A stretch of 64,000 nt of DNA, from positions 372,001 to 436,000 of the forward strand of contig JAFEDS010000009.1 in the NCBI GenBank assembly GCA_018241505.1, written 5' to 3'. Numbering within the stretch: position 1 is the stretch's first letter; every line of letters starts with the position of its first letter. The notes beneath the pieces are model-generated. The model was not told the origin of the DNA. It was given only the letters and a program-made list of their open reading frames with translations, and made no database searches. Made by a program: the position numbers and the translations under genes. The DNA comes from Pseudomonadota bacterium (GTDB taxonomy: Bacteria; Pseudomonadota; Gammaproteobacteria; Steroidobacterales; Steroidobacteraceae). Shown in pieces: positions 10,618 through 25,372 of this stretch.

Positions 10618-11403
10618 ATGGACTGCGGAATTCAAGGGCGAACAGCTCTGGTGTTGGGAGGCGGCGGTGGTTTGGGAGCCGCAATTGCACTGTCGCTGGC
10701 GCGTGAGGGCGCGAAAGTGGCGCTGGCGGATGTCAACGAGGCGGCCGCGCAAGCGGCTGCTGCGACCGTGGCCGCCGCAGGCGGCATCGCACGTGCCCTA
10801 CAATGGGATATGTCCGACTCATCCGTCATTGACGCGCGGGTCTCTGAGATCGAAGCACACTTGGGACCCATCGACATCCTGGTCAACATCACCGGAGGGC
10901 CCCCGCCGACACCGGTAATGGGTCAGAGTCCTGATCTGTGGCGCAAGCAGTTTGAATCAATGGTGGCTTCCGTCATCGCCATCACGGATCGGGTGTTGCC
11001 CGGCATGCGTGCGCGCCGCTGGGGACGTATTCTCACGAGCACATCCTCGGGCGTCATCACTCCAATCCCGAACCTGGGAATTTCCAATGCCCTGCGTTCC
11101 GCGCTCGTAGGGTGGTCAAAGACTCTATCAAGAGAGGTCGGTCGCGACGGCATCACGTGCAACATACTCGTTCCGGGCCGCATAGCGACGCCGCGAATTC
11201 GAATGCTCGATGAGGCGCGTGCGAAGCGAGAGGGCCGGCCTGTCGCTGACGTAACGGCGGAGAGCCTCGCTTCGATTCCCTTGGGAAGGTATGGAGAGCC
11301 GGAGGAATACGCTGCTGCGGTTGCCTTCCTCGCTAGTGCCCGAGCGTCATATATCACCGGTACGGTGATGCGCATCGACGGCGGACTGATCCCCAGCGTC
11401 TGA
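10618..11403 (+). CDS. SDR-family oxidoreductase lacking the canonical YxxxK
   Basis: 261 residues, ATG 10618 preceded by GAAGGA. The Rossmann glycine motif [11 protein letters not shown] is at residues 13-23 and the serine segment (STSSG) near 142. At the catalytic position the sequence reads [17 protein letters not shown] (about 153-169), so the usual Y-x-x-x-K is replaced by S-x-x-x-R. I recall a subgroup of bacterial SDRs with an SNALR-type segment here. The C-terminal GTVMRIDGG is normal for the family. It ends the first plus-strand operon and overlaps the convergent symporter gene by 57 bases. Substrate unknown. Confidence 0.85.
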
Positions 11404-12363
11404 TTCTGCGTATCGCTGCGCAATGTACGCACACACCATGAGCTGAAGCTGGTGAAATACCAACACCGGAAGAATGACGAGGCCGACCGAGGTCGCAGGA
11501 AATAGAATGTTGGCCATCGGTAGTCCGGTCGCCAGCGACTTCTTTGAACCGCAAAACACAATGGCGATCTCATCCTCGCGCTCGAAGCAGGCGGTGCGAC
11601 TCGCCAGACGGGTGAAGCAGAGCACCAGAGCCAGCAGCAACGTGCTCAATGCAAGCATACTCGCGAGCTGCTGCCAGGGCAGATCGCTCCAGGCACCGGC
11701 GAGCACGGCTGCACTGCAAGCGGCATAAACTACCAGCAGAATCGAGGCGCGATCCGTGGTCGCCACGAGAGCGGGATGTCTCGTGGCCCAGGGCAGCAGC
11801 CATCGGCTCAGGAGTTGGCCGGCCACGAGTGGCAGGACAAGCTGTTTCACGATAGCTTCAATCTGCTCTGGCGCAGAAGCGCTGGCGTGCAGGTTCAAAA
11901 GGAGCGTGACCAGTAGCGGCGTGATCGCGATGCCGAGCAGATTCGAAACAGTGGCGGCACACACGGCCGCCGGCACGTTACCTTTCGCAATCGAGGTGAA
12001 TGCGATCGAAGACTGCACCGTGGAGGGCAGAGCGCACAAATACAACATACCCAGCCAGAGGGACTCGTTGAGAACCCCGGGGACGAGTGCATGCAAGGCG
12101 AAGCCGAGTAGGGGAAAGACGACGAAGGTCGACGCCAGTGTCAGTGACTGCAGCCGCCAGTGCATCATCCCGGCGATGAGTGCCGCCCGCTGCAGGCGTA
12201 CTCCCTGCAGAAAGAACAGCAGCCCGATAGCCGCCGCCTTGACGTAGCCGAGGGCTGCCGCTGCGATCCCACTTGCCGGCGCCAGAATGCCGATCGCCGC
12301 TGCTACGAACAGCGAGACGATGAAAGGATCCGGGCGGCGTCTCCTGGCAATGATGGCGTTCAC
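11347..12363 (-). CDS. Bile-acid:Na+ symporter-like (SBF-like/YfeH-type) membrane carrier
   Basis: 338 residues, about ten transmembrane helices. Segments such as [10 protein letters not shown], the polar [18 protein letters not shown] loop and [14 protein letters not shown] are characteristic of the SBF-like (DUF4137/YfeH) group related to BASS sodium symporters. GTG at 12363 is the start, 13 bases after the kynureninase stop, so the two form a short operon. It probably carries an organic anion across the inner membrane; coupling to kynU suggests an anthranilate-type acid, which is inference. The last 57 bases overlap the convergent SDR gene. Confidence 0.87.
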
Positions 12364-12376
12364 GTCTTGCGAAGAA

Positions 12377-13645
12377 TCAGGCGAGAATCGCCGCCAGATT
12401 CTTCACGAGCTCGCATACATCGGAATAGTTGTTGTAGAGCGGAACAGGGGCTGCGCGGATGATGTCCGGCTCGCGCCAGTCGCAGATCACGCCTGCCGCC
12501 TCGAGACGCTCGAAGGTTTCACGCCCACGCTGGCGACCTTCCTTGACTCGCAGGGAGAGCTGGCATCCGCGCTGCTGTGGGTCGCGTGGCGTAACCACTT
12601 CCACCGCATGTGCTACCTCGCGCGTCAGCAACCCCTCGAGGAATCCTGTCAGGCGGATGGATTTTGCCCTGAGGCGGGCGACGGTCGCACGCTCGAACAG
12701 CTCATAGGCTGCCAGCAAGGGGGCCAGGCCGAGAACCGGTGGATTGCTCAACTGCCAACCTTCAGCGCCGGGCATGGGTACGAATTGCGCATCCATCAAA
12801 AAACGCGAGTCCTTGTCGTGGCCCCACCAACCACCCAGGCGCGGTCGCGCGAAGTCGCGCGCGTGACGTTCGTGCACATAACATCCAGCCACCGCGCCGG
12901 GTCCGCCGTTCAGATACTTGTAACTGCACCAGACCGCGAAGTCAGGGCCCCAGTCATGCATCCGCAGCGGAATGTTGCCAACCGCGTGAGCCAGGTCGAA
13001 TCCAACAATGCAGCCGCGCTCGTGTGCCGCGGCCGTGATGGCCGGCATATCGAATACCTGCCCGGTCGCGTACTGCACGCCGGAGAACAACACCAAGGCG
13101 ATCTCCGAACCCTGGCGGGCAATGACATCGAGGATGTCCTCATTGCGAAGCACGCTCTCGCCCGCCCGCGGCGCGCATTCAAGCAGCGCCGCGGATTCGG
13201 TGAGTCCGTGCCAGCCCAAATGCGAAGTGACGGCATAACGGTCCGATGGAAAGGAGCCCTTTTCCATCAGGATGCGAAACCGCTTGGAGGTCGGCCGGTA
13301 GAAGCTCGCCATCATCAGATGGAGATTCACGGTCGTGGAGTTCATGTGCACGACTTCTGCAGGCAGTGACCCGGTCAGTTGCGCGCCGACCTCTGTCAGA
13401 AACTCGTGGTATTTCACCCATGGGCGGCGTGCGGCGTGGTGGCCGAGGACTCCCAGACGGCGCCAATCGGTCAGTTCCTCCTCCACCCTTTCGGCAGCCG
13501 CTTTGGGCTGAAGGCCGAGTGAGTTTCCCGCGAAATAGGCTACCGGCCGGCCCTTCGGCCCGATGGGGAGATGAAACTCGTTGCGAAAAGCCGCGAGCTC
13601 ATCGGCCTCGTCCAGCGTGCGCGCAGAAATCAGGGGTGTGTCCAT
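12377..13645 (-). CDS. kynU: Kynureninase
   Basis: 422 residues, a fold-type I PLP enzyme that cleaves kynurenine or 3-hydroxykynurenine into (3-hydroxy)anthranilate and alanine. YFAGNSLGLQPK near the N terminus, GFDLAHAVGN (PLP-binding Asp, about residue 216) and CSYKYLNGGPG with the PLP lysine near residue 243 match kynureninases closely, and the length is normal. I use ATG 13645; there is no ribosome site in front of it, and a TGTATACA operator ends 3 bases upstream, so a leaderless or very short leader is possible. It sits divergent from an alpha/beta hydrolase and ahead of the symporter gene. Confidence 0.94.
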   Translation of the reverse strand: MDTPLISARTLDEADELAAFRNEFHLPIGPKGRPVAYFAGNSLGLQPKAAAERVEEELTDWRRLGVLGHHAARRPWVKYHEFLTEVGAQLTGSLPAEVVHMNSTTVNLHLMMASFYRPTSKRFRILMEKGSFPSDRYAVTSHLGWHGLTESAALLECAPRAGESVLRNEDILDVIARQGSEIALVLFSGVQYATGQVFDMPAITAAAHERGCIVGFDLAHAVGNIPLRMHDWGPDFAVWCSYKYLNGGPGAVAGCYVHERHARDFARPRLGGWWGHDKDSRFLMDAQFVPMPGAEGWQLSNPPVLGLAPLLAAYELFERATVARLRAKSIRLTGFLEGLLTREVAHAVEVVTPRDPQQRGCQLSLRVKEGRQRGRETFERLEAAGVICDWREPDIIRAAPVPLYNNYSDVCELVKNLAAILA

Positions 13646-13695
13646 ATTGTATACATGATAGGATAAATGCGTGCAAATTACCAATATAGTGTACG
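13644..13695. promoter_or_regulatory. Divergent promoter region with TGTATACA operator (site B) and degenerate repeats
   Basis: TGTATACA is at 13648-13655 and directly abuts the kynU start codon. Degenerate versions lie at exact 20-base steps: TGCGTGCA at 13668 and AGTGTACG at 13688, the last just before the hydrolase ATG at 13699. AT-rich elements resembling promoter boxes (TTGGTA, TATCAT on the minus strand, 18-base spacer) surround the site. The arrangement suggests that a GntR-type repressor controls both divergent genes. Confidence 0.5.
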
Positions 13696-13698
13696 TCA

Positions 13699-14526
13699 AT
13701 GCCGTTCATCAGTCGCGCTGAGGCGCAGCTCTACTACGAGGTCCACGGTGAGGGGCCCGCCGTTGTTCTGGCGCACGGAGTCGGTGGCAACCATGCCACC
13801 TGGTTCCAACAGGTTGGAGTCTTTGCGCGCAGCTATCGGGTGGTGACCTTCGATCATCGCGGGTTTGGCAATTCGACCGATTCGCAGGGACTGGGCCGCG
13901 ACGCATTCGTCGACGACCTGTGCGCTCTTTTGGACCATTTGCAGCTCGAGCGCGCTGCCTTGATCGGCCAATCGATGGGTGGCGGTACGTGCGTAGGTTT
14001 CGCGAACCGGCGTCCGGAACGCGTCACCGCACTCGTGCTTGCGGACACACTCCATGGGCTGACAGAAGTTGACGCAAACGGCCATTTGATGGCCCAGGCG
14101 CGCGCGGCCACCGACGGACTGAGCCAACTCGACAGAGTGCTCGGTCAGGACTTCCGCACGCGCGAGCCGACATTGAGTCTGCTTTACGCACAGCTTGCGA
14201 GTTTCAACGCGACCGACCGCCGCAACCTGCGGGGCGCATTCGCTCCGTTGGTGAGCCCTCAGATGTTGGCGTCTGCTCGAATACCGGCCCTGTTCATCGC
14301 CGGGCAGCACGACCTGTTGTTTCCACCCGCCGCAATCCAGGCTGTGCAGCGTGAAGTGCCGGGCTCCTTTTATGTTGAGGTGTCTGGTGCGGGCCACTCC
14401 GCCTATTTCGAGCGTCCGACCGAGTTCAACGACACTGTGTTGAGTTTTTTTCAGGCGATCCGCTATCCCGGAATTCGCCGGCCGGCGCACAGCAACACTG
14501 CGGGTTATACCCCTGCAACAGAATGA
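13699..14526 (+). CDS. Alpha/beta-hydrolase (ester or C-C/lactone hydrolase type)
   Basis: 275 residues with the classical hydrolase triad: nucleophile Ser in GQSMGG (residue 92), acidic residue in AGQHDLLFPP and His in GAGHSAYFERP. The oxyanion region is LAHGVGGNHATW. The closest general type is MhpC/3-oxoadipate enol-lactonase, that is, ring-fission or lactone hydrolases of aromatic degradation. ATG 13699 lacks a clear ribosome site and is immediately preceded by operator-like DNA. The stop is 4 bases from the convergent ABC ATPase gene. Its place across from kynU suggests action on a pathway intermediate; substrate unknown. Confidence 0.87.
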   Translation: MPFISRAEAQLYYEVHGEGPAVVLAHGVGGNHATWFQQVGVFARSYRVVTFDHRGFGNSTDSQGLGRDAFVDDLCALLDHLQLERAALIGQSMGGGTCVGFANRRPERVTALVLADTLHGLTEVDANGHLMAQARAATDGLSQLDRVLGQDFRTREPTLSLLYAQLASFNATDRRNLRGAFAPLVSPQMLASARIPALFIAGQHDLLFPPAAIQAVQREVPGSFYVEVSGAGHSAYFERPTEFNDTVLSFFQAIRYPGIRRPAHSNTAGYTPATE

Positions 14527-14530
14527 TGGG

Positions 14531-15319
14531 CTAGACGATCCCCATCAGCTCGCTGAGTTGCACGACATAGCGTCCAAACTCCGGGTGCTGCCGGGTGGTG
14601 CGTGGGTCCCTTGGGCGCGGCAGGTCGATGCGAATATCTTCAATGATCCGACCGGGACGCGCCGACATTACCAGCGCGCGGTCGGATAGAAAGATGGCCT
14701 CCGAAATGCTGTGCGTAACCATCACGACGGTTTTGCGCTCAGCCTGCCAGATACGCAGCAGCTCCACGTTCAGGTGATCGCGTGTCAGCGCATCGAGCGC
14801 CCCGAAGGGTTCATCCATGAGCAGCACTCGCGGATTCGCCATGAGTGCCTGGCCGATTGCAACCCGCTGCTTCATGCCGCCCGAGAGCTCGTGCGGATAG
14901 CGTGCGCCGAAGCCCTCCAGTCCGAGTTTCGCCAGCATGGCGTTAGTGCGCTCCGGCAGGTCAGGTGTTTTGTGACCCCGCAGCTCGACGGCCAGGCTCA
15001 GATTCGCGGCCACCGTCCGCCAGGGCAACAGGTTGGCTGTTTGAAACACAATTCCCAGCTCGGCGGGCGGTCCGGCGATGGCCTGTCCGAAGACGCTGGC
15101 CTCGTCGGCTTCGAAGGAGGTCAATCCTGAGATGATCCTCAGCAGCGTGCTCTTGCCGCAACCGGAGGGGCCGATGAGCGATACAAACTCGCGATCCCGA
15201 ATCTGCGTCGAGATCCGATCGAGCGCCAGTACACCCCGCTCGCCGCCATACTGCTTTTGGACATTGCTCAGCGTGATTGCGGGCTGAGGCGCCGCCTGGA
15301 TCACCGGGACTGCCACCAT
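14531..15319 (-). CDS. ABC transporter ATP-binding protein (TauB/SsuB/ThiZ type)
   Basis: 262 residues. Walker A GPSGCGKST (about 50-58), Q-loop FQTANLLPW, signature LSGGMKQR, Walker B VLLMDEPFGALD and the switch histidine in VMVTHS are all intact. Proteins of this type energise nitrate/taurine/sulfonate/HMP-type importers. It overlaps the permease gene upstream by 19 bases and belongs to a minus-strand operon that also holds an extradiol-like VOC, a lipoprotein binding protein, another VOC, an aspartate-dehydrogenase-like gene, a nitroreductase and gntR. It should power uptake of the ligand bound by the NMT1-type proteins. Confidence 0.94.
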   Translation of the reverse strand: MVAVPVIQAAPQPAITLSNVQKQYGGERGVLALDRISTQIRDREFVSLIGPSGCGKSTLLRIISGLTSFEADEASVFGQAIAGPPAELGIVFQTANLLPWRTVAANLSLAVELRGHKTPDLPERTNAMLAKLGLEGFGARYPHELSGGMKQRVAIGQALMANPRVLLMDEPFGALDALTRDHLNVELLRIWQAERKTVVMVTHSISEAIFLSDRALVMSARPGRIIEDIRIDLPRPRDPRTTRQHPEFGRYVVQLSELMGIV

Positions 15320-16083
15320 ATCAACCTTCCCAACGCTTCGATGACATAAAACAATACCAACGACAGTAGTGTGACCGCACCCAACGCAGCGAACGTCAGG
15401 CCGGTGTTGGATGCCCCGCTGGCGAGCATGATGAGGTTCCCCAGCCCTTCATAGGAGCCGATGAATTCCCCTACGACCGCGCCGATGACCGCAAGGGGCA
15501 TTGCGACTTTGCAGCCATCGACGAAATGAGGCAGGGCGCTCGGGATACGCAAGCGCCACAGCGTCTGCCAGGTAGTGGCGCGCAACGCCGTGAAATGCTC
15601 CACGAGCGATTCCGGCGTACTGCTGAAACCGCCCAACGTCGCAATCAAGATGGGGAAGAGGGCAAACAACATCGTCATCAGCACTTTGGAGGACAGCCCG
15701 TAGCCGAGCCAGACGACGACGATCGGGGCAAGACCGACCTTCGGAATGCTCTGCAGCGCAATCAGTAGTGGGTACAGTGTCCGGCGGAAAATCGGGATGA
15801 AGAAGATCGCGGCGGCTGCGGCGACTCCCAACACAGTCGCGAGAACGAACCCGAGGACGACTTCCTCGAATGTAACCCACGTGTGATGGGCTAGCGTCGC
15901 GCGAGCGTCCCAGGCGGCACGCACAATTTCGCTCGGCGCGGGTAGCAGATAGGATTTTACCGCGAACCCTCGGACGCCCAATTCCCATAGCCCCAGGAGC
16001 AGCACGAAAAACACGATCGGGTCTATCAGAGCCCGATTCCCGAACCCGCGGGGCGCGTTGGTCGTGCTGGCGCTCGTTGACAT
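15301..16083 (-). CDS. ABC transporter permease (TauC/SsuC type)
   Basis: 260 residues with about six helices. The EAA-like loop reads EHFTALRATTWQTLWRLRIP, followed by the P and G expected at the ATPase contact. I start at ATG 16083, five bases after the stop of the preceding VOC gene; the longer frame to 16152 runs back into that gene. It forms the membrane channel of the importer with the ATPase immediately downstream and the binding lipoprotein two genes upstream. Confidence 0.92.
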   Translation of the reverse strand: MSTSASTTNAPRGFGNRALIDPIVFFVLLLGLWELGVRGFAVKSYLLPAPSEIVRAAWDARATLAHHTWVTFEEVVLGFVLATVLGVAAAAAIFFIPIFRRTLYPLLIALQSIPKVGLAPIVVVWLGYGLSSKVLMTMLFALFPILIATLGGFSSTPESLVEHFTALRATTWQTLWRLRIPSALPHFVDGCKVAMPLAVIGAVVGEFIGSYEGLGNLIMLASGASNTGLTFAALGAVTLLSLVLFYVIEALGRLIWWQSR

Positions 16084-16088
16084 CGCCA

Positions 16089-16616
16089 CTACACACCGTA
16101 CTTCTTGCGCAAGGCCGCCGGGGGCTCGACTGCCCACTTGCTGAAGTGCCACTGATCGAGCGAGTCAATTGAGTCCTTCCAGACCTTGGCCTCGTGCGGA
16201 TGCTCCGCGTCAATCTGCACCATGTCGGAATAGAACTCGACGTTGTTGCCGTCCGGGTCCTTGAAGACCAGGAAGGTGTTCTCACCGGGCCCGTGCTTGC
16301 CGGGCCCGCGCACGATCGGAATGCCGCGCTCTTTCAGTAGCTGCGCCATCGCCTCGATTTCGGTGAAGTCCGGCACAAAATACGAGAAGTGCTCGAGCCC
16401 GGGCCGCTCGGCGTTATCGCTCGCGGCAGCCTCCGGGGGCAGTTGGGCCAGGGCGAGGTCGTGATGATCCTGTCCGGCGCGCAGGAACACCATCCGATTC
16501 TCGATCCAGTCGGAGACCTGCAAACCGACGATCTCCGTATAAAACTGCGTCGAGCGCTCCAGGTCGCGGACCTTGAGTACCAGGTGTCCCAAACGGCGTG
16601 GGCGCGCTTTGAACAT
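16089..16616 (-). CDS. VOC-family extradiol-dioxygenase-like protein
   Basis: 175 residues from ATG 16616, which is spaced 7 bases from AGGAG; the ATG two codons upstream lies too close to that site. Candidate metal ligands of a type I extradiol/VOC site are the His in RLGHLVLKV, the His in GLEHFSYFV and the Glu in NNVEFYSDM. The DPDGNN loop is typical of catechol 2,3-dioxygenase relatives. The length suggests a single-domain enzyme. It lies between the binding protein and permease genes of the importer. It might cleave an aromatic ring independently of the 3-hydroxyanthranilate dioxygenase at 22399-22950, or be an isomerase or lyase. Confidence 0.87.
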   Translation of the reverse strand: MFKARPRRLGHLVLKVRDLERSTQFYTEIVGLQVSDWIENRMVFLRAGQDHHDLALAQLPPEAAASDNAERPGLEHFSYFVPDFTEIEAMAQLLKERGIPIVRGPGKHGPGENTFLVFKDPDGNNVEFYSDMVQIDAEHPHEAKVWKDSIDSLDQWHFSKWAVEPPAALRKKYGV

Positions 16617-16631
16617 GGCCATTCTCCTTTA

Positions 16632-17675
16632 TTAGCGGTGAGCAGCGGCGGCGACGAACGTGCGGGTGTACAAGTCATCGGCCGATACCTTGCCTTGCAA
16701 CGGATAGCCGGAGGCAATGAACTCGAACGTACGGGTCATTTTGCTCGGATCCAACTCGCCGGCGGACGTATCGCTGGCCGGCATGAGCTGCGCGAGCTCG
16801 CGGATCTGTTCGGCCGTCACGCCCGCATCGAGCAGGGGATAGCGTTTGAGCATGATCGCGAGGGCCTCCTGCTGATGCTGCAACGCGTACCGGTACCCCC
16901 GGTAGGTGGCGGCGATGAAGTGTTTGACGAGATCGGGATTTTTGCGAATCAGGCGATCGCTCGTCATCAGGCCGCTGCCGTAGATATCGAGATTGAACTG
17001 CTCATACTCGAGCCAATCGAGCGTCTTGCCGGCGCGGCGTGCCTGCTCTTCGAACAACGGGCGGCTGTTGGCGCGCCAGCACTCGGCGGCGTCAATCTTG
17101 CCTTGGACCAGCGAAGCGACAATGACCGTGGGATTCAACTGCAGGATCTGCACTGACGACGGGTCGACACCGTTGCGCTCGAGCCAAACGGGTAACAGCA
17201 CCTGCACCGCCGACGTCTGGCCGCCACCGACTTTCAGTCCCACCAGGTCCGCGGGCCGAGTCAATACATGTTGCTCCCTGAGGAAGCACAAGCCGCCCGG
17301 CCAGCGCTCATTGATCGCGCCAATCAGGCGAGCCGTGCCGCCATTCGCGCGATTCAACGCGATTGAGACGGGATCGCCGTAGCCGAACTCGAACATCCCC
17401 TGGTCGACCTCGTTGGCGGTGCGAATGCCGCCGAAGCCGCGCACGGCTTCGACTTCTAGACCGGCATCGCGGTAGAACCCCTTGTCGATGGCGACGATCA
17501 CTCCAACCTGGCTGCCCTGAGGCAACCACGCCATGTTGAATCGGACCTTGTTGGCCGCAGGGGCTGCGCCCGAGCAGCCGGACAGGAGCGCGGCCGCCAC
17601 AAGCAGCAATATGAGGCCGGCGACCGCGAGGATTGCGCGTTGCGCGCAGCGGGCAGTGGCAGCGAAAGCAGGCAT
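16632..17675 (-). CDS. ABC transporter substrate-binding lipoprotein, NMT1/THI5-like (copy 2)
   Basis: 347 residues. A lipobox (ALLSGC) follows an N-terminal hydrophobic helix, so the mature protein is a lipoprotein. The binding-protein signature WLPQGSQVGV and GGIRTANEVDQGMFEFGYGD matches copy 1 at 6796-7785 nearly residue for residue, and the second lobe shares AECWR and the YGSGLM/YGNGFV segment. It is next to the permease and ATPase genes, so this is the importer's own receptor. The ATG at 17675 is preceded by GGAG. Ligand unknown; context suggests a nitrogen-containing aromatic. Confidence 0.91.
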   Translation of the reverse strand: MPAFAATARCAQRAILAVAGLILLLVAAALLSGCSGAAPAANKVRFNMAWLPQGSQVGVIVAIDKGFYRDAGLEVEAVRGFGGIRTANEVDQGMFEFGYGDPVSIALNRANGGTARLIGAINERWPGGLCFLREQHVLTRPADLVGLKVGGGQTSAVQVLLPVWLERNGVDPSSVQILQLNPTVIVASLVQGKIDAAECWRANSRPLFEEQARRAGKTLDWLEYEQFNLDIYGSGLMTSDRLIRKNPDLVKHFIAATYRGYRYALQHQQEALAIMLKRYPLLDAGVTAEQIRELAQLMPASDTSAGELDPSKMTRTFEFIASGYPLQGKVSADDLYTRTFVAAAAHR

Positions 17676-17699
17676 CAGATCGCTCCGGTCGATGGTGAG

Positions 17700-18131
17700 T
17701 TACTCCGGCTGGTTGCCCTTGGGGGTGGACCCGACCCAACCGCGTTGTGAGACATCGATCATCATGCCTTCCGGGCCGCGCAGCTTGAATTCGGCGTTGT
17801 CCTTGTGTGGATTCGCCCCCAGGCCCTGCGCGATGTTGACATCGTGGCGCGGCTCGCATCCCGCGGCGATGCTGCGCTCGATCGTCTTCTCAATGTCGTC
17901 GACTTCGAAGCCGATATGATGCAATCCGACGAAGTCGAGTGCGCACCCCGCGGCCGGCGCATTCTTGAATTGCAGAATCGCCAGGTTGATCACCCCATCC
18001 GAGAGGTAATAGCCGCGTGCGTTGCGGCTGTCAATCTTGCCGCAGATCTGCATCTCAAAGACGTCAGCGAAATAATGGGCGGTTCCTTCCGGATCCTGGC
18101 TGGCAATGGCGATGTGTCGCAGTCGAGTCAT
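17700..18131 (-). CDS. VOC-family protein, copy 2 (paralog of 7785-8186)
   Basis: 143 residues, one VOC module with LRHIAIASQDPEGTAHYF, YLSDGVINLAIL and VGLHHIGFEVDDIEKT, all close to the VOC protein at 7785-8186. Candidate metal-binding histidines are in LRHIA and LHHIGF. A C-terminal GPEGMMIDVS has D where many relatives have E. As with the first copy, an NMT1-type binding-protein gene is the direct neighbour, so the pair looks like a duplicated binding-protein/VOC module, in opposite gene order. Reaction unknown. Confidence 0.85.
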   Translation of the reverse strand: MTRLRHIAIASQDPEGTAHYFADVFEMQICGKIDSRNARGYYLSDGVINLAILQFKNAPAAGCALDFVGLHHIGFEVDDIEKTIERSIAAGCEPRHDVNIAQGLGANPHKDNAEFKLRGPEGMMIDVSQRGWVGSTPKGNQPE

Positions 18132-18139
18132 GGTCGCTC

Positions 18140-18976
18140 TCAGGTACCGACTTTCAAAGGGGCGACCAGCGAGCGCAAACAGGCGATGACACTGAGCGCG
18201 GTGATCTTGCCCGTCCCCGGATGCTCCTCGCTGGGGACATTTTCAATGGTCATTTCGAATCGCGCGCTGTCGGCTTCGACCGAAATGGTGTGTGTGTTGC
18301 GTTGGAACGCCGGGTCGGCCCAGATTTCCAACTGCGTGCGATCCGGGCCAACACCCGCCAGGCCGAGCGCGGCTGCGACGTTTACGTTGGCTGGAAACAG
18401 CTTCGCGCCTTCGCGAGCGGTCCCGCGGAAGAGGCACATTGGCGCCGTGAGGCGCTCGAGGTCGATTCCCTGCGCACGCACCCATGCGGCATCTGCGAGT
18501 GAGCGTGGCGGTTTGCGGGTGACCATCCTGACGCTTTGGATCTCGCCTTCGGCGGCGGCTCTCATCGCGTCGAGGCCGAGCAGAGCTCCTGTGGCGAGGA
18601 TGATGCGGCTGCCGCTGTCACGGGCGCGCTTTTCCAACTCCGGACTCTCCAGCATCGCAGCGCCGCTGACGGTGACAAGGGTCTTCCGATGTGCGATAGC
18701 GGCGTCCGTGATCGTGCGAAACGCAGCCGCCGGAGCACAGTCAACCAACACGTCCGCGCAGCGCGCCAGCTCATCGACCGTGACGATGGGCACAGTGCTC
18801 TGTGACGGCGGCCCTCCGCTCAGCTCCGCAAGGAACACCTGGGCCTTGGCCGGCGTCCGGGTGCTGACACCGCATAGCTCGAGGCCCGGCACGCCGCCCC
18901 GATGCAGGACCGAGGCCACCTTGCGCCCGATGGTCCCGAGACCGAATACACCAACACGCTCAGGTCTATCAGGCAA
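18140..18976 (-). CDS. Aspartate dehydrogenase-like NAD(P)-dependent oxidoreductase (NadX family)
   Basis: 278 residues from TTG 18976, which has GAGG nine bases upstream and overlaps the nitroreductase stop by 8 bases. Methionines further upstream lie inside the nitroreductase gene. VGVFGLGTIGRKVA is the Rossmann motif; the FPANVNVAAALGLAGVG and EEHPGTGKITALSVIACLRSL blocks are the conserved C-terminal segments of L-aspartate dehydrogenases (DUF108). Members oxidise aspartate to iminoaspartate or work reductively. Inside a catabolic operon the protein probably handles an amino or imino acid from ring degradation, for example removing nitrogen; this is inference. Confidence 0.86.
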   Translation of the reverse strand: MPDRPERVGVFGLGTIGRKVASVLHRGGVPGLELCGVSTRTPAKAQVFLAELSGGPPSQSTVPIVTVDELARCADVLVDCAPAAAFRTITDAAIAHRKTLVTVSGAAMLESPELEKRARDSGSRIILATGALLGLDAMRAAAEGEIQSVRMVTRKPPRSLADAAWVRAQGIDLERLTAPMCLFRGTAREGAKLFPANVNVAAALGLAGVGPDRTQLEIWADPAFQRNTHTISVEADSARFEMTIENVPSEEHPGTGKITALSVIACLRSLVAPLKVGT

Positions 18977-19601
18977 GTGTGCATACCTCGGAAAATTCAA
19001 AACGCGGCAGTTTGGGGAACAGGAGCTGCGGGTCGCCATGGCCGAGACAACACAGGAAGTTGGCTCGAATCCGCGTGCCGGCGAAGAACTCGCCGGTGAC
19101 ATACTCCGCATCGAAGCCCGACAGGGGGCCGCAGTCGAGCCCGAGTGAGCGCGCGGCGAGCATCAGGTAGGCACCTTGAAGCGTACCGTTGCGGAATGCA
19201 GTTTCCTGCGCGAGCGCGGGGTTATTCTGGAACGGTCGTGCTGCCTCGGGCCGATGTTGGAACAGGCGTGGCAGATGTGCATGGAAGTCCAAGTCGTAGC
19301 CGATGATGGCAACCACGGGCGCCCCCATCACCTTGGCGACATTTGCGGGTGCCAGGGCGCCGCGCAGACGCTCTTTGTTGGCCGGTGTACGAATGAAGAT
19401 GAATCGCGCCGGACAACAGTTGAGGCTCGTCGGCCCCATCTTGACCAGGTCGTACAGCCTGAGCAGCAGCTCATCGTCAACCGGGCGCGTCAGCCAACCG
19501 TTGTGGCTGCGCGCTGTGCTGAAAAGTTGGTTGAGCACTCGCTCATCGAGCGCTCGAGGCAGCTCGCGTGGCTCTCCCATGGCTTGCGGACTCGGTGTCA
19601 T
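18969..19601 (-). CDS. Nitroreductase-family protein (RutE/HadB-like)
   Basis: 210 residues from ATG 19601. The open frame continues far upstream, but that part is the antisense shadow of gntR. FMN-binding features of the malonic-semialdehyde-reductase/nitroreductase subgroup are visible: RSHNGW, MGPTSLNCCPARF, and SLGLDCGPLSGFD in the second half, with CLGHGD near the end. RutE reduces malonic semialdehyde to 3-hydroxypropionate, and other members reduce nitroaromatics or quinones. It lies between gntR and the aspartate-dehydrogenase-like gene in one operon. A nitro- or quinone-imine-reducing role would fit an aminophenol pathway, but nothing in the sequence proves it. Confidence 0.88.
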   Translation of the reverse strand: MTPSPQAMGEPRELPRALDERVLNQLFSTARSHNGWLTRPVDDELLLRLYDLVKMGPTSLNCCPARFIFIRTPANKERLRGALAPANVAKVMGAPVVAIIGYDLDFHAHLPRLFQHRPEAARPFQNNPALAQETAFRNGTLQGAYLMLAARSLGLDCGPLSGFDAEYVTGEFFAGTRIRANFLCCLGHGDPQLLFPKLPRFEFSEVCTLA

Positions 19602-19617
19602 CGGGGTGCTCAACCTC

Positions 19618-19642: not shown

Positions 19643-19645
19643 TCT

Positions 19646-20338
19646 TCAGGTCATCATGGCGGCTCGGGATCTCGATCCGCCCTGTGTCTGTTGTTCCCTT
19701 TGGCGCAGGAAGGTGATCACTCGCAGATTCGAGGTCGCGACGTGATTGCGCATGGCCTGATAGGCGCGCACCTCGTCCCCGGCCAGAATGGCATCGAGCA
19801 CGTCGCGATGCTCGGCGGGTGCCGTTTCCAGGCGGCTGCCCAAGGAAAACACAAAGGCCCGGAACGGCAGCAGCCGGCTGCGAAAGTTCTCGGTGATCTG
19901 CTGGATGCTGCGATTGTGGGCACCGGCGCACAATGAAGTGTGGAACTCGTCGTTGAGCTGCCAATAGGTGGGCTCGTCGCCGCGCTTCACCGAATCGAGC
20001 TGTTGTTGATAGAGCACTTCGAGGTGCTTGCGTTCGACCGCCGTCATGCGGCGGGCGGCGAATCTCGTGCACAGGGCCTCGAGCTCCTCCAACGTTTCCA
20101 GCATCTCGCTGAGTTGGTCGAGGTCCAGGTCCGTGACCGTGGCACCGTGATGCGGTTTGAAGTTGATAAACCCGCTGCCGGCCAATTGGCGCAGTGCATC
20201 GCGCACGGGCGTGCGCGATACCCCAAACTGGGAGGCGATCGCCTGCTCCTCGATGCGCTGCCCCGGTTTGAGTTGTCCCGTAATGATCTGGTCGATCAAA
20301 CCCTGATAGATCCGCTCGCTGATGGTCGAGGCGCTCAT
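19646..20338 (-). CDS. GntR-family transcriptional regulator, FCD subgroup
   Basis: 230 residues. The N-terminal winged helix-turn-helix contains GLIDQIITGQLKPGQRI, then QFGVSRTPVRDALRQLAGSGF, which is the GntR recognition helix. The C-terminal all-helical ligand domain has the FCD metal-site pattern with D in LNDEFHTSLC, H in HNRSIQQI and the distal EHRDVLDAI and NHV segments. I choose ATG 20338; GTG 20365 is an alternative. TGTATACA-type sites at 20391, 20452 and 20472 lie just upstream, suggesting autoregulation, and the same motif occurs at the other promoters of the island. The inducer is probably a carboxylate or aromatic intermediate. Confidence 0.93.
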   Translation of the reverse strand: MSASTISERIYQGLIDQIITGQLKPGQRIEEQAIASQFGVSRTPVRDALRQLAGSGFINFKPHHGATVTDLDLDQLSEMLETLEELEALCTRFAARRMTAVERKHLEVLYQQQLDSVKRGDEPTYWQLNDEFHTSLCAGAHNRSIQQITENFRSRLLPFRAFVFSLGSRLETAPAEHRDVLDAILAGDEVRAYQAMRNHVATSNLRVITFLRQREQQTQGGSRSRAAMMT

Positions 20339-20388
20339 GCCCGCATTCCGTTGGTCCCCCGCCACTTTGGCGGCTGTATTGACGCGGG

Positions 20389-20400: not shown

Positions 20401-20447
20401 AGTCGTCACATTAAAGCGATAGATTCAATACGTGCAGATATCATGGC

Positions 20448-20483: not shown

Positions 20484-20488
20484 GACAC

Positions 20489-21340
20489 TCACAGCGGACG
20501 TTGTGCAGCCAGCATCTCCAGCACTTTGGTGAACAGGAAGCCGCCTGGTTGTGCCAGCGCTTCGAGAACTGAATAGTGGTGGGCGCCCGGAACGATGCCG
20601 ACCTCGATGTTGGGCACGGATCTCGACCACACCGCGGCGCAGTCTTCCGACTGCCGCTGCAGCTCCGGCAGCTCGCGATCGCCATAACTCAACACCAACG
20701 GCCATGTGCCGTTCGGGACTAGCCGAATGGGGCTCAGCTCCTCAATGTCCCGGTCGGTCAGATCCAGGGCCGCGTTGAGATAGGAGCGCTGCACGGGTGC
20801 GAGGTCATAGATGCCGCTGATCAGCACGGCGCCGCGTAGACGCGGGTGATGGCGCTGTGTCGCTGAGAGATGGTGGAGCTGCGTGGCCGCGAGGTGTGCT
20901 CCGGCCGACCAACCCGCCAGTACCCAATCGTAACCGGCTCCGAAGGGCTCCAACGACTCGGACACTGAGCGGCATGCGGCTGCGATCTCGCCAACAATCT
21001 CGCTCAAGCGCTTGCTCGGAGCCAACGAGTAGCCCAGCAGCGCCACGTTGATCTCACTCTGCAGCAGCCCCTCGGCAACAAAGGCGAATTCCTCCTTCGA
21101 GTTGAATTGCCAGTATCCCCCGTGAATGAAAAACACGGTCGGGCGACCTGGCTTCGATGCAGGCAGCCAATCGAAAAGCATCCGCGGAGCAGGGCCGTAT
21201 CGGCAGTCCAAACGGGCAGTGGGGCGTGCTCGGATTCGCATACTTCGCGCACACCACGCGTCGAAATGGGACTGGAAACCGGGCACAGCCGCTCGGTTAT
21301 TCAAAGCAGCGTCCCAATACCCCGCACCGGCCGATCGCAA
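20489..21340 (-). CDS. Alpha/beta-hydrolase of the arylformamidase (kynurenine formamidase, AFMID-type) group
   Basis: About 283 residues from TTG 21340, which has GGAG seven bases upstream; the ATG at 21373 lies inside an operator. FFIHGGYWQFNSKEEF carries the HGGYW oxyanion motif typical of AFMID-type kynurenine formamidases, GWSAGAHLAA the nucleophilic serine, and PGAHHYSVLEAL the catalytic histidine; LSYGDRELPEL is the acid region. YWDAALNNRAAVPGF near the N terminus is also characteristic. The expected reaction is N-formylkynurenine (or another arylformamide) to kynurenine plus formate. With kynureninase and 3-hydroxyanthranilate dioxygenase in the same island the call is strong in context, though related hydrolases act on other esters. 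Confidence 0.82.
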   Translation of the reverse strand: MRSAGAGYWDAALNNRAAVPGFQSHFDAWCARSMRIRARPTARLDCRYGPAPRMLFDWLPASKPGRPTVFFIHGGYWQFNSKEEFAFVAEGLLQSEINVALLGYSLAPSKRLSEIVGEIAAACRSVSESLEPFGAGYDWVLAGWSAGAHLAATQLHHLSATQRHHPRLRGAVLISGIYDLAPVQRSYLNAALDLTDRDIEELSPIRLVPNGTWPLVLSYGDRELPELQRQSEDCAAVWSRSVPNIEVGIVPGAHHYSVLEALAQPGGFLFTKVLEMLAAQRPL

Positions 21341-21361
21341 ATTTGCACTCCGATTGCTTGT

Positions 21362-21392
21362 AATTGTACACATATTATCTATAATGTATTCT
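21362..21392. promoter_or_regulatory. Divergent operator (site F) between the AFMID-like hydrolase and the FAH-family gene
   Basis: Core TGTACACA at 21365-21372 plus a degenerate TGTATTCT at 21385-21392, again exactly 20 bases apart. The ATG of the longer hydrolase frame (21373) sits inside it, so the real start is probably the TTG at 21340. The site could serve both divergent genes. Confidence 0.5.
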
Positions 21393-21438
21393 TATAGGCA
21401 ATAAAGAATACTGTCGGCCTGGAAGTCGGAGATCGACC

Positions 21439-22374
21439 ATGAGCTACGCCATCGGAAGCTATCGACGTGATAACAACGCCTATCCCGCGCTGGTGCTGGC
21501 GGGGCGCATCTACGACTTGGCAGAGACCTGGCGAGCTTGTGGAGAGTCCGCCGCCGCGCGCGGGTGGATCGAGCGTGGCGTGGCAGCGATGCTCGCGAGT
21601 TGGTCCCAGGTCGCGCCTGTCCTGGACGAGTTGGCCGCGTCTGCGCAACAGCGGCTCGACGACGGCAAGCTCGGCGTGCAAGAGGTCGATGCGGCCGCAA
21701 TTGCCGCGCCCTTTGTCCCCGCTCGCATCTTTTGCGCCGCTTCCAACTACGTCGAGCACGCAAATGAGATGGGTACCGTGCTCGCCGCGAAGACCGACAG
21801 CCGGCCCTACATGTTCCTGAAAACCGCCTCGAGCGTAATAGGACCGAACGAGACCGTACGGATTCCGCCTGAAACGCTCCAGCCTGACTGGGAAGTGGAA
21901 CTGGCGGTCGTGATCGGGCAGCGCGCGCGCCGCATCAAACCCGAGCACGCACTCGAGCATGTCGCCGGCTACACCATCGTCAATGATGTCAGCGCGCGAG
22001 ATCTCAACAAGCGCTCCGACTATCCTTTCAAACACGACTGGTTTCAGGGCAAGAACCACGACACGTTCTGCCCCATCGGTCCGTGGATCGTACCGGCCCG
22101 CTTCATCCGCGATCCACAGCGTATCAAGTTGCAGTTGACCGTGAATGAGGCACTCATGCAGGACGGCACCACGGCCGAGATGATCTGGACCGTACGCGAG
22201 CAGATTGCCTACCTGTCAACCATCGTGACCCTGAAGCCCGGCGATGTGATCGCCACCGGCACTCCCACCGGTGTTGGCATGGGGCGCGGCATTTTCCTGA
22301 AACCCGGCGATGTCATGACGGCATCGGTGGAAGGAATAGGGCTATTGCGCAATCCGGTCGCCGCGGAGAAGTAA
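21439..22374 (+). CDS. Fumarylacetoacetate-hydrolase-family protein
   Basis: 311 residues, ATG 21439 preceded by GGAG. The FAH fold is marked by FCAASNYVEHANEM, the metal-site segment DWEVELAVVIG, VNDVSARDLN, and the terminal IATGTPTGVGMGRG and LKPGDVMTASVEGIG blocks. The family includes HHDD isomerases, fumarylpyruvate and acylpyruvate hydrolases and 2-oxo acid decarboxylases, which break or isomerise ring-cleavage products. It is the sole gene of a plus-strand unit flanked by the AFMID-like hydrolase and nbaC, so it probably acts on a product of 3-hydroxyanthranilate cleavage or of the VOC enzymes. Exact reaction open. Confidence 0.9.
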   Translation: MSYAIGSYRRDNNAYPALVLAGRIYDLAETWRACGESAAARGWIERGVAAMLASWSQVAPVLDELAASAQQRLDDGKLGVQEVDAAAIAAPFVPARIFCAASNYVEHANEMGTVLAAKTDSRPYMFLKTASSVIGPNETVRIPPETLQPDWEVELAVVIGQRARRIKPEHALEHVAGYTIVNDVSARDLNKRSDYPFKHDWFQGKNHDTFCPIGPWIVPARFIRDPQRIKLQLTVNEALMQDGTTAEMIWTVREQIAYLSTIVTLKPGDVIATGTPTGVGMGRGIFLKPGDVMTASVEGIGLLRNPVAAEK

Positions 22375-22398
22375 AACGCTCCGCGGCCGCCGTGCCGC

Positions 22399-22953
<555 letters not shown>

Positions 22954-22956
22954 TCA

Positions 22957-23916
22957 TCACCCTAGGCGCAGGCCGCAAGCTTGAAACGCCGCGCGGGCCG
23001 CGTGCTTCTCATTCTCGGTGAGCTCCAGGAGAGGTGGGCGGACTCGGCCACCGACCTGGCCCAGCAGCTCCTGCCAGTATTTTTGATGAGCGTGCGGTTT
23101 CTCAGGGGGGCGTGTTCGATGCAACGCCTCGCGCACGGGATTGAGGCTGTCACGAACCGTACGCGCTTGCTTCGCGTGCCCGCTGAACGCCAGATCGGTG
23201 TACTCGCGCATCCGCCGATCAAACTTCGTCTGCAGCAGGTAAGGGGGCGATGAGCACAGGTAGACCTGCCAGTGAAGCTCGAGGATGTTGTCGAGCCACT
23301 CATCCTCGGATGAGGTGCTGACGAGGATCCGGTCTCCCGCCAGACGCGTGAGCTCGGTATACATCGGACGCGGTACGCTGTACTTGATTGCGACCACATT
23401 CTCGATGTCGGCCAGGCGGTTGCAAAGTTGCGGCGACAGCAGATAGCCACTGTCCGGGTGGCTCCACAGGGCGATTCCGATGTCTACCTGCCGGGCAATC
23501 GTGCTGTAGTATTCGAAGACGGTTTCATCCTGCGCCTGGAAGAAATGCAGGATCGGTGCATGCACCACAATGAAGTCGGCACCCGCCTCTTGCGCATGCC
23601 GTGCGAGCTCGATAACAACATCCAGGTTCTGGTCCGAGCACGACATGATCGTATGATGGCCGCTCGGCGTGGCCGCGACCGCCAGGTCGAAGGTGCGTTT
23701 GCGCTCCGGCACCGACATGGAGAAGAACTCGCCTTGTTTGCCGGAAATGAACAGTCCGTCGATGCCCAGGTCCCGGGTCCAATGGTGGATGTTCTGACGG
23801 AATCCATCCTCATCCAGCTCGAGGTTGGGACCGAACGGGGTGAGCGCGGCCGCCCAGATCCCTTTCAGGTGAGCGCGTGCGTACGCCTTCGCGTCCTTTC
23901 TGCTGTATTTGCTCAA
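22957..23916 (-). CDS. DHDPS/NAL-family protein (copy 3, atypical active site)
   Basis: 319 residues with a DHDPS-type barrel. The Schiff-base lysine is in VVAIKYSVPRP. The usual tyrosine position reads IALWSHPDSGY, so Tyr is replaced by Trp. The N-terminal TPFGPNLELDEDGFRQNI and SGKQGEFFSM segments are typical. It lies between the aldehyde dehydrogenase and nbaC with gaps of 22 and 6 bases, so it is probably a step in the same pathway. A hydratase-aldolase or decarboxylase-like role on the product of nbaC is a guess. Confidence 0.84.
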   Translation of the reverse strand: MSKYSRKDAKAYARAHLKGIWAAALTPFGPNLELDEDGFRQNIHHWTRDLGIDGLFISGKQGEFFSMSVPERKRTFDLAVAATPSGHHTIMSCSDQNLDVVIELARHAQEAGADFIVVHAPILHFFQAQDETVFEYYSTIARQVDIGIALWSHPDSGYLLSPQLCNRLADIENVVAIKYSVPRPMYTELTRLAGDRILVSTSSEDEWLDNILELHWQVYLCSSPPYLLQTKFDRRMREYTDLAFSGHAKQARTVRDSLNPVREALHRTRPPEKPHAHQKYWQELLGQVGGRVRPPLLELTENEKHAARAAFQACGLRLG

Positions 23917-23938
23917 ACGGGCTGCCTCCGCCGCTCAG

Positions 23939-25372
23939 TCAGATGGTCATGCTGTGTGAAATGTTCTTCACAACAGTGTAGTTGAACAGCCCTTCAGTCC
24001 CGCCCTCGCGGCCGTAGCCGCTCTCCTTGACGCCGCCGAAGGGCGTCTCCGCAACCGAGGCCTCCAGGGTATTGATGGAGATGTTTCCGGCCTCGATGCC
24101 TTCGGTCAGTTGATTTGCCCGGCTGGCCGAGTGAGTGAATGCGTAGGCGGCCAGACCGAACGGCAACGCGTTCGCCTTTTGGATGGCCTCATCTATGGAA
24201 GACACCGGATTGATGACCGCCAGTGGCCCAAACGGCTCCTCCCGCATCACCCGTGCGGATTCCGGCACGTCGGCCAGAACGGTGACCGGGAAGAAATACC
24301 CGGGTTGCTTCAGCCGCTCTCCGCCGGTCAGAACGCGCGCACCGCACTGTTTGGCATCGGCGACCAGCGCCTCCATGGCCTCGATGCGGCGATGATTGGC
24401 GAGAGGCCCCATCTGGGTGTTGGAATTGAAGCCGTCTCCCACCACAACAGTGCGGGCCGTCTCGGCAAATACCCTGACAAAGGTCTCGAAAATGGCCTCC
24501 TGCACAAAGAAGCGGGTTGGCGAAGTGCACACCTGTCCGGCATTGCGGGCTTTGCGGACGGCCGAGGTCACGGCGGCAGCGGCCGGATCGACATCGTCGC
24601 AAACGATGACCGGCGCATGGCCACCGAGCTCCATGAGAACGGGTTTCATATGATCCGCCGCGAGCTTGGTGAGATGTTTGCCGACTACGGTGGAGCCGGT
24701 GAAAGCGATGAGCCGAGTCTGCTTCTGCGGAATGAGATACTCGGATATTACCGCCGGCATCCCAAACACGAGGTTGAACACACCGGGAGGCAGCCCCGCA
24801 TCATGCAACGCGCGCGCGATATGCACCGCGCCGGCGGGTGTCTCTTCCGATGCTTTCAGGATGATTGAGCAACCCGCGGCCAACGCGCCGGCTACCTTGC
24901 GCGAAGGCTGGCTCAACGGAAAATTCCAGGGCGAGAAGGCGGCGACCATGCCAATGGGCTGGTGGTGCACTGTGTATTTGATGCCAGGCTCGCTCGGGAT
25001 CACCCGCCCGTAGATTCGCTGCCCCTCGGCGGCATCCCATTCGAAGAACTCGCAGCCCCGGATGACTTCCAACTTCGCCTGATTGAACGGCTTGCCGTGC
25101 TCGAGGGTGATGGCCCGGGCAATCTCTTCCGAGCGCTCGCGCATCAGCGTAGCGGCCTTGACCATGATTTCGGCGCGCTTTCGCGGCGAGAACGCGCTCC
25201 AGACTTTGAAGCCCTGCTCTGCCGCCTCGAGCGCCTCGTCGAGCTCCGCGCGAGTGGCGACGGGAACCCGTCCGATGACCTGCTCGGTAGCTGGATTGAG
25301 GACCGGCTGCGCATAGGCGGTTTTTTTCCAGGCACCGCCGATGTACAGATTGACTTCAGGGTAGTTCGTCAC
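23939..25372 (-). CDS. NAD(P)-dependent aldehyde dehydrogenase (SSADH/semialdehyde type)
   Basis: 477 residues from GTG 25372, which has GAGG six bases upstream. Landmarks are FSPWNFPLSQ, the NAD site FTGSTVVGK, the general base in MELGGHAP and the nucleophile Cys in NAGQVCTSPTRFF, then EEPFGPLAV and the C-terminal GGVKESGYGREGG. Overall similarity is to GabD-like succinate/ketoglutarate-semialdehyde dehydrogenases. In this operon (aldehyde dehydrogenase, DHDPS-like, nbaC) a natural candidate reaction is oxidation of 2-aminomuconate-6-semialdehyde or a related muconic semialdehyde; sequence alone does not discriminate. Confidence 0.9.
   Translation of the reverse strand: MTNYPEVNLYIGGAWKKTAYAQPVLNPATEQVIGRVPVATRAELDEALEAAEQGFKVWSAFSPRKRAEIMVKAATLMRERSEEIARAITLEHGKPFNQAKLEVIRGCEFFEWDAAEGQRIYGRVIPSEPGIKYTVHHQPIGMVAAFSPWNFPLSQPSRKVAGALAAGCSIILKASEETPAGAVHIARALHDAGLPPGVFNLVFGMPAVISEYLIPQKQTRLIAFTGSTVVGKHLTKLAADHMKPVLMELGGHAPVIVCDDVDPAAAAVTSAVRKARNAGQVCTSPTRFFVQEAIFETFVRVFAETARTVVVGDGFNSNTQMGPLANHRRIEAMEALVADAKQCGARVLTGGERLKQPGYFFPVTVLADVPESARVMREEPFGPLAVINPVSSIDEAIQKANALPFGLAAYAFTHSASRANQLTEGIEAGNISINTLEASVAETPFGGVKESGYGREGGTEGLFNYTVVKNISHSMTI

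Follow-up and report, generated by a model that had tools for sequence, protein, structure and literature searches.

The DNA analysed here, a stretch of 64,000 nucleotides referred to as the window, covers positions 372001-436000 of one contig of a 7.88 Mb genome of the family Steroidobacteraceae, of which Povalibacter uvarum is another member. It carries an operon for an aldehyde dehydrogenase (ALDH), a putative Schiff-base enzyme of the dihydrodipicolinate synthase (DHDPS) fold (DHDPS_C) and a 3-hydroxyanthranilate 3,4-dioxygenase (HAO). 3-Hydroxyanthranilate (3-HAA) is formed as an intermediate when tryptophan or nitrobenzoate is degraded. We propose, with a probability of about 0.85, that HAO and DHDPS_C, together with either ALDH or a molybdenum enzyme, constitute a 3-HAA route that dispenses with 2-amino-3-carboxymuconate semialdehyde decarboxylase (ACMSD). 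The single described catabolic fate of the HAO product, in the accessible parts of two reports, is decarboxylation towards 2-aminomuconate (PMC7842363, PMC5817917).

A recurring operon of ALDH, DHDPS_C and HAO

The three genes lie on one strand, with 22 bp between ALDH and DHDPS_C and 6 bp between DHDPS_C and HAO (Table 1). HAO exceeded the cut-off of a second profile, TIGR03037 (251.1 versus 145.95 bits), and when aligned to the Cupriavidus metallidurans CH34 enzyme it retained 10 of 10 Fe-, substrate- and Zn-site residues, whose numbers and roles we assume, in agreement with an initial annotation of the window that had described these sites as intact. The top curated model for ALDH was succinate-semialdehyde dehydrogenase (SSADH, TIGR01780), at a score that falls short of membership (432.4 bits, cut-off 646.35), and its closest solved structures were of the SSADH and alpha-ketoglutaric semialdehyde dehydrogenase types.

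DHDPS_C belongs to the DHDPS superfamily as judged by its PF00701 match, by its Schiff-base lysine Lys178, which was invariant in 14 of 14 DHDPS_C sequences, and by its predicted structure, a confident barrel of this family (mean pLDDT 89). It does not qualify as DapA (TIGR00674, 76.2 versus a cut-off of 206.15 bits); every NCBIfam model scored far below its cut-off, with the PRK03620/KdgD models among the best. The best 50 Foldseek hits shared only 19-26% identity, and sequence and Foldseek searches found no solved relatives closer than general NAL/DHDPS-like proteins.

Searching 396 genomes of the host's order with the window DHDPS_C (E<=1e-50) returned 42 places in 39 genomes at a minimum identity of 57%, which delimits a discrete subfamily. 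The 41 order-level neighbourhoods besides the window's own, L049 included and many of them cut by contig ends, contained HAO (24), ALDH at >=60% identity (33), the aspartate dehydrogenase-like AspDH (25), kynureninase (KynU, 22), kynurenine monooxygenase (KMO, 22), tryptophan dioxygenase (TDO, 14) and NadA (5). A further 80 named loci, the best 80 of 501 candidates, were by title mostly from Alphaproteobacteria (Bosea, Aminobacter, Mesorhizobium, Nitratireductor, Ensifer, Rhodobacteraceae), with several actinomycete metagenome-assembled genomes; HAO was present in 76, AspDH in 57, ALDH in 53 and a hydrolase resembling the formamidase AFMID in 52. A LysR gene related to that of the window adjoined DHDPS_C in 58 of the 80. 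The comparison of gene order that the initial annotation had proposed places ALDH-DHDPS_C-HAO in proteobacteria and some actinomycete metagenome-assembled genomes, in most cases together with an AspDH-like gene.

Restriction to loci whose flanks each extend for about 8 kb or more left 79 distinct ones (L083 and L123 represent a single site and were counted once). HAO was present in 73 of them, AspDH-like genes in 62, ALDH in 62 and a molybdenum-enzyme gene in 12. ALDH and the molybdenum enzyme were mutually exclusive: 62 of these loci had ALDH only, 12 the molybdenum enzyme only, none both and 5 neither (Fisher p = 1.2e-10, uncorrected for kinship), and the corresponding numbers for all 121 loci were 86, 21, 0 and 14. 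In 22 of the 22 loci with a match, the molybdenum-enzyme gene shared its strand with DHDPS_C and was no more than 300 bp away, and the replacement was observed both within the host's order (L084, L085) and in Alphaproteobacteria. The best model for this protein, the aldehyde-oxidising NF041018, scored 607 bits, under its cut-off of 790. Such a swap of non-homologous enzymes suggests one shared step, most simply an aldehyde oxidation. A large subunit of the molybdenum enzyme stands by itself immediately before DHDPS_C, where ALDH would otherwise be, in L143, L152, L154, L211 and 17 further loci, and the annotated L211 stretch lists no small or FAD subunit nearby.

In a phylogeny built from 136 HAO rows (excluding repeat fetches, rows with stops and rows of fewer than 145 aligned residues) the window HAO fell inside the DHDPS-associated group, with 103 of 104 such rows on the fork (support 89/81). 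Its nearest neighbours were from Rhizobium (L140), Bosea (L146) and a plasmid (L204). Bosea sp. BK604 has an equal gene order, with identities of 78% for ALDH, 78% for DHDPS_C and 80% for HAO. Tree position and Bosea identity point to transfer from Alphaproteobacteria, and we infer that the operon is a mobile, horizontally spread catabolic module for 3-HAA, hereafter module 1. In L049 the HAO paired with DHDPS_C and AspDH belongs to the ACMSD-type group and sits on a long branch, a possible independent association of DHDPS_C with HAO. In Povalibacter uvarum (L083/L123) ALDH, DHDPS_C and AspDH stand together without HAO nearby, and the HAO of that genome is on another contig.

The classical gene order of the 3-HAA meta-cleavage pathway is given in the accessible part of PMC5817917. 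A classical set lies beside HAO on Mycetohabitans, Caballeronia and Cupriavidus plasmids, the Mycetohabitans amidohydrolase being ACMSD (E 1.8e-158 to 2hbv). By contrast, queries for ACMSD, RidA, acetaldehyde dehydrogenase and DmpG gave zero matches in 126 loci (the window, L049, L083-L204, L210 and L211), and the AMSDH query gave none at >=42% identity. ACMSD was likewise absent from the scanned open reading frames of 11347-26355, as initially annotated, and the suggested search of the rest of the genome for its gene (nbaD) found none at E<=1e-20; RidA (NbaF) was not searched genome-wide. None of the host's six Amidohydro_2 genes matched the ACMSD query at E<=1e-20. The early idea of a different route for the HAO product is supported by the ALDH-DHDPS_C-HAO set, which recurs in loci without an ACMSD match.

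The host also encodes a second kynurenine set. A KMO-KynU-Cyclase-HAO operon, whose Cyclase-family gene is a formamidase candidate, lies about 250 kb away on the window's contig, its KMO matching solved KMOs at E 4e-101, and TDO is encoded on another contig (C42:243887-244666; 386.9 bits, just under the cut-off of 390.7). TDO and KMO had been reported as missing; neither was found among the scanned open reading frames of 11347-26355, and both are encoded elsewhere in the genome. In the HAO tree the host's second HAO grouped with its own family, apart from the window HAO in the DHDPS-associated clade. These separate clades distinguish the two sets, the second probably making quinolinate for NAD and the window set probably being a catabolic paralogue.

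Proposed fate of the ring-fission product

HAO would open 3-HAA to 2-amino-3-carboxymuconate semialdehyde, which ALDH (elsewhere the molybdenum enzyme) would oxidise to 2-amino-3-carboxymuconate, with no decarboxylation. A tautomer of this product would be an alpha-imino, beta,gamma-unsaturated acid open to a Schiff-base hydratase-aldolase, and DHDPS_C may use Lys178 to hydrate it and cleave it by a retro-aldol reaction into malonate semialdehyde and oxaloacetate or iminosuccinate. AspDH could convert the latter to L-aspartate, and malonate semialdehyde could proceed to acetyl-CoA through a CoA-acylating (methyl)malonate-semialdehyde dehydrogenase (MMSDH). The computed mass balance (3-HAA + O2 + 2 H2O = aspartate + malonate semialdehyde) closes and is redox-neutral. 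The route has few genes, against six or more in the classical one. For the exact retro-aldol scheme, which is read from gene content, we regard the odds as even.

Both dehydrogenases proposed for the later steps occur in or beside such loci. Five cluster AspDH copies scored 242-332 bits with PRK13303.1-3 (cut-off 177), and the AspDH motif columns were retained in 58 proteins; the window copy is proposed to make aspartate and may serve the route. MMSDH (TIGR01722) lies directly behind ALDH in L089 and L095 (676 and 674 bits, cut-off 448.5), and the host genome encodes one TIGR01722 enzyme of 685 bits. The host also has a cluster-type AspDH at C12:65546, in another catabolic-looking neighbourhood, and this copy could serve the route instead; there (L225:9547-10287) it stands beside a PcaD-like hydrolase and a gene that by eye resembles an HpaB-type monooxygenase, perhaps another AspDH-using catabolic route.

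An AspDH beside HAO could alternatively be NadX, with HAO making quinolinate for NAD synthesis and ALDH and DHDPS_C as bystanders or side-branch genes. NadB was over its cut-off in only 2 of 39 cluster genomes, and NadA was in 5 loci and over its cut-off in 14 of 27 cluster genomes, as this explanation would have it. However, AspDH was in the locus in 9 of 11 NadA-less cluster genomes, some of them incomplete drafts, and of the 19 named genomes in the search, 18 of which carry AspDH in the locus, the 11 with a NadB match, 10 of them over cut-off, all had AspDH. In the host, NadA, which a NadX would require, had zero matches at E<=1e-3, and NAD synthesis from quinolinate is probably already provided for by the separate HAO operon and NadC; a sub-cut-off NadB match (339 bits), of a size found in most relatives, is probably succinate dehydrogenase. 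We consider NAD synthesis a very improbable role for the window set, and a NadX role for AspDH was largely rejected, as AspDH is kept without NadA in 9 of 11 genomes and alongside NadB in 11 of 11. NadA does occur inside the kynurenine/DHDPS_C locus in L092, L098, L104, L114 and L119, adjoining AspDH in some, and it is possible that these loci use the route's iminosuccinate for NAD.

The order of the two steps after ring fission could be reversed, DHDPS_C first cleaving the aldehyde to iminosuccinate or oxaloacetate and malondialdehyde, from which ALDH would then yield malonate semialdehyde. The nearest solved relatives of ALDH include alpha-ketoglutaric semialdehyde dehydrogenase, and KdgD, of the DHDPS family, acts before that enzyme. 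Malondialdehyde is, however, toxic, and since the HAO product cyclises quickly to quinolinate an early oxidation would be sensible; we therefore see an outside chance for this order. DHDPS_C might also be a Schiff-base substitute for ACMSD and the deaminase, forming an imine at C2 by transimination and losing ammonia and the C3 carboxylate, with the 4-oxalocrotonate-level products finished by general enzymes. KdgD dehydrates and decarboxylates, and PRK03620/KdgD were among the best models of DHDPS_C, though far under cut-off. Acetaldehyde dehydrogenase and the DmpG aldolase, in contrast, are unmatched in the 126 loci, and AspDH and the MMSDH of L089 and L095 would be left unexplained, so that we judge such a substitution unlikely.

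Molybdenum hydroxylase family members often hydroxylate N-heterocycles, and the stand-in for ALDH belongs to this family. Both enzymes could thus act on the cyclised product, converting quinolinate to 6-hydroxyquinolinate, the lactam of 2-amino-3-carboxymuconate. Yet the molybdenum enzyme and ALDH never share any of the 121 loci, pyridine hydroxylation is beyond an ALDH, and the best model of the molybdenum enzyme is an aldehyde-oxidising one. This possibility appears highly unlikely, and we retain oxidation of the open-chain aldehyde as the preferred reading.

Several observations weigh against the proposed route. Its scheme is drawn from the genes and its enzyme steps are predictions; the position aligned to the usual active-site Tyr, whose role in this alignment we presume, is not Tyr in DHDPS_C, and a solved relative with a matching reaction was not found for this protein. 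The window AspDH is of another subfamily than the copies beside HAO and sits among genes of a second module described below, NadA stands beside AspDH in some of the five loci with NadA, AspDH is absent from 17 of the 80 full-flank loci, and ALDH and the molybdenum enzyme are both absent from 5. The MMSDH evidence comes from two close genomes (same genus, enzymes 92% identical); three other neighbouring ALDHs of the five scanned are not MMSDH, and TIGR01722 exceeded its cut-off in 24 of 27 cluster genomes and in 5 of 14 controls, so that its genome-wide presence says little. The 80 named loci lean to close relatives. ACMSD relatives (29-36% identity) occur in 3 of the 39 DHDPS_C genomes, off the contigs of the fetched cluster; that of G362 (E 3e-67) could be a genuine ACMSD, in which case one genome might hold both routes. 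ACMSD relatives (27-37%) were also found in 9 of 31 other genomes of the order, and the absence of ACMSD is accordingly not peculiar to module carriers there.

If the route is true, many alpha- and gammaproteobacteria and some actinomycetes would process the HAO product in a shorter way. A DHDPS subfamily whose sole annotation at present is 'dihydrodipicolinate synthase family protein' would gain a function, and the 'aspartate dehydrogenase' genes adjoining HAO would be explained. Pathway models that treat 3-HAA breakdown as incomplete in the absence of ACMSD would need correction.

Probable feeders of 3-HAA and a second module

Three kinds of upstream genes accompany module 1. The first is TDO-KMO-KynU (order-level loci, L193 and L196). 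The second comprises a homologue of 1H-3-hydroxy-4-oxoquinoline 2,4-dioxygenase (E 1.8e-78), a flavin monooxygenase and an AFMID-like hydrolase; the 4-quinolone dioxygenase homologue occurs with HAO/DHDPS_C in 14 named loci (L142, L143, L147 and L163 among them), and the set perhaps breaks an 8-hydroxy-4-quinolone, such as a xanthurenate derivative, down to N-formyl-3-hydroxyanthranilate. The third consists of PnbB and two reductase genes (L140, L204) and may serve 2-nitrobenzoate, by analogy with OnbA/OnbB in the accessible part of PMC5817917. All three plausibly converge on 3-HAA.

Every gene named in the initial annotation of the window (KynU, HAO, FAH, AspDH/NadX-like, DHDPS, ALDH, VOC and nitroreductase) was present by profile match (Table 1). 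Its AFMID-type formamidase is an alpha/beta hydrolase of the Abhydrolase_3 family; the top NCBIfam model was a lipase family, under its cut-off. It is a candidate for hydrolysis of N-acyl- or N-formyl-(hydroxy)anthranilate or -kynurenine, and a relative (27-36% identity) occurs in 52 of the 80 named DHDPS_C loci. Two gene starts were revised: ALDH likely begins at a GTG near 25372 and KynU at a Met near 13645. The open reading frame 18969-20399 is overlong, its nitroreductase match being limited to residues 282-475, and the GntR regulator (19646-20365) occupies the remainder in another frame.

Table 1. Genes of the island and flanking genes, in window coordinates, with profile evidence
Feature	Position	Strand	Evidence and remarks
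LysR-type regulator	25456..26355	+	PF03466, PF00126; divergent from the ALDH-DHDPS_C-HAO operon
ALDH, semialdehyde dehydrogenase	23939..25399	-	Aldedh 508.8 bits; proposed oxidation of ring-fission aldehyde
DHDPS_C, DHDPS-fold putative Schiff-base enzyme	22957..23916	-	PF00701 100.3 bits; proposed hydratase/retro-aldolase
HAO	22399..22950	-	NF009763 269.6 bits, cut-off 220
FAH-family enzyme, module 2	21439..22374	+	Profile match
Alpha/beta hydrolase, AFMID/esterase kind	20489..21373	-	Abhydrolase_3
GntR-family regulator, module 2	19646..20365	-	Recurs in L163, L227, L228, L229, L230
RutE-type nitroreductase ('malonic semialdehyde reductase'), module 2	18969..19556	-	NF003768 268.1 bits, cut-off 152
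AspDH-like protein, PRK13302 type	18140..19111	-	NF009825 328.8 bits, cut-off 253; start uncertain
VOC protein, module 2	17700..18131	-	PF00903
NMT1/THI5-like binding protein, module 2	16632..17675	-	PF09084; recurs in L163, L227, L229, L231
Extradiol-like VOC (HpaD/C23O-like, single module), module 2	16089..16622	-	PF00903 88.2 bits
ABC permease, module 2	15301..16152	-	PF00528
ABC ATPase, module 2	14531..15319	-	PF00005
PcaD-like alpha/beta hydrolase, module 2	13699..14526	+	TIGR02427 125 bits, under cut-off; between KynU and ABC genes
KynU	12377..13699	-	TIGR01814 442.6 bits, cut-off 246.4
2-Hydroxyacid dehydrogenase, DHDPS_A, second NMT1 binding protein, VOC_A	4936..8186	+	Probable further module-2 genes

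Module 2 recurs elsewhere in varying subsets of GntR, FAH, NMT1-like, extradiol-like VOC, ABC permease and ATPase, RutE-type nitroreductase, DHDPS, VOC and 2-hydroxyacid dehydrogenase genes (L163, L227-L231). FAH relatives of 48-54% identity stand beside the module-2 VOC in L227-L231, with one of 70% over a part in L163; the RutE-type nitroreductase recurs in L163, L227, L228 and L230, the PcaD-like hydrolase has a 58% relative beside VOC in L231, and relatives of the 4936..8186 genes occur in L163 and L227-L231. The window FAH itself had no plasmid match at E<=1e-90, though the 48-54% relatives exist. The RutE-type gene was found on 69 plasmid records, of which many list no HAO, and is hence no marker by itself.

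Relatives of the extradiol-like VOC (53-58%) were found on 6 plasmid records, all 6 of which also carry HAO, compared with 77 HAO-bearing records among 72,556 plasmid records overall at the threshold used. HAO is 9 kb from module 2 in Burkholderia arboris, 7 kb in C. metallidurans CH34, within 10 kb in a second C. metallidurans strain and about 27 kb, beside KynU, on a Diaphorobacter plasmid; in Ensifer PDNC004 and Niveispirillum it is on the same plasmid more than 100 kb away. Module 2 as an unrelated neighbour was dismissed: 16.5-kb stretches from Ensifer and Diaphorobacter lacked HAO, but wider stretches show it. Among 150 genomes of the host's family only the host's own had the module-2 VOC, so that module 2 was probably acquired from outside.

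Could FAH, VOC and nitroreductase break down the HAO product itself in a single pathway, as initially annotated? Module 2 repeatedly adjoins HAO and KynU, and the RutE-type name, malonic semialdehyde reductase, fits a malonate semialdehyde product. At least 3 of the 6 VOC plasmids (B. arboris, CH34 and Diaphorobacter) nevertheless carry a complete classical lower pathway, with ACMSD or an amidohydrolase behind HAO, and the VOC query matched only L163 among the 80 named DHDPS_C loci. A lower-pathway role for these genes is thus not supported, in view of their company with ACMSD pathways, and we regard it as quite improbable. Since module 2 accompanies KynU/HAO whichever lower pathway follows, it would be a feeder or a parallel branch; from its gene content and neighbours we somewhat favour an uptake-linked feeder. 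This agrees with the idea, also raised initially, that an environmental derivative is broken down, which gains support from the six plasmids. If true, module 2 would be an undescribed uptake-linked pathway that makes a substrate for kynureninase or HAO from an environmental compound. The full combination of a widespread mobile ACMSD-free pathway, a new DHDPS activity, recovery of the ring nitrogen as aspartate by AspDH and such a conversion by module 2 is put forward tentatively, at somewhat less than even odds.

Two further groups of genes were noted. A third DHDPS-family protein of the window (9675-10607, +; PF00701 84.9 bits) lies between an amino-acid permease and an SDR gene, and M20 dipeptidase-like, S9 peptidase and serine beta-lactamase/D-aminopeptidase-like genes adjoin the island at 26358-29980 and 32567-34525.

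Relation to known systems

In the open-licence full texts searched, no text was found joining 3-HAA or kynurenine catabolism with dihydrodipicolinate synthase, Phaeobacter inhibens with tryptophan and 3-HAA was not found, and there was no pointer to the proposed route. As in the nba/onb pathway, HAO would open 3-HAA, an aldehyde dehydrogenase would follow, and similar feeders occur (PnbB/reductase-type, L140 and L204). In contrast to that pathway, whose ACMSD, RidA, DmpG and acetaldehyde dehydrogenase are the very enzymes unmatched in the 126 loci, the present loci have a DHDPS-fold enzyme and AspDH, and their ALDH is of the SSADH type and not of the hydroxymuconic type. The kynurenine pathway to NAD (KMO, KynU, HAO and NadC) also uses HAO, and its genes lie in the host outside the window; the window HAO belongs to a different clade and shares its operon with ALDH and DHDPS_C.

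NahE and PhdJ are DHDPS-superfamily hydratase-aldolases. DHDPS_C shares the superfamily fold and the Schiff-base lysine with NahE, PhdJ and KdgD, but lacks the usual Tyr, and only KdgD was among its best hits, at 40 bits. In protocatechuate 4,5-cleavage (lig) the ring-fission aldehyde is oxidised without decarboxylation, hydrated and aldol-cleaved to oxaloacetate and a C3 unit. The proposed 3-HAA route would work alike, through oxidation, hydration and aldol cleavage, although we do not claim membership: here the substrate is an amino compound, no member of any lig enzyme family was recognised among the operon's genes, and the aldolase would be of the Schiff-base class I.

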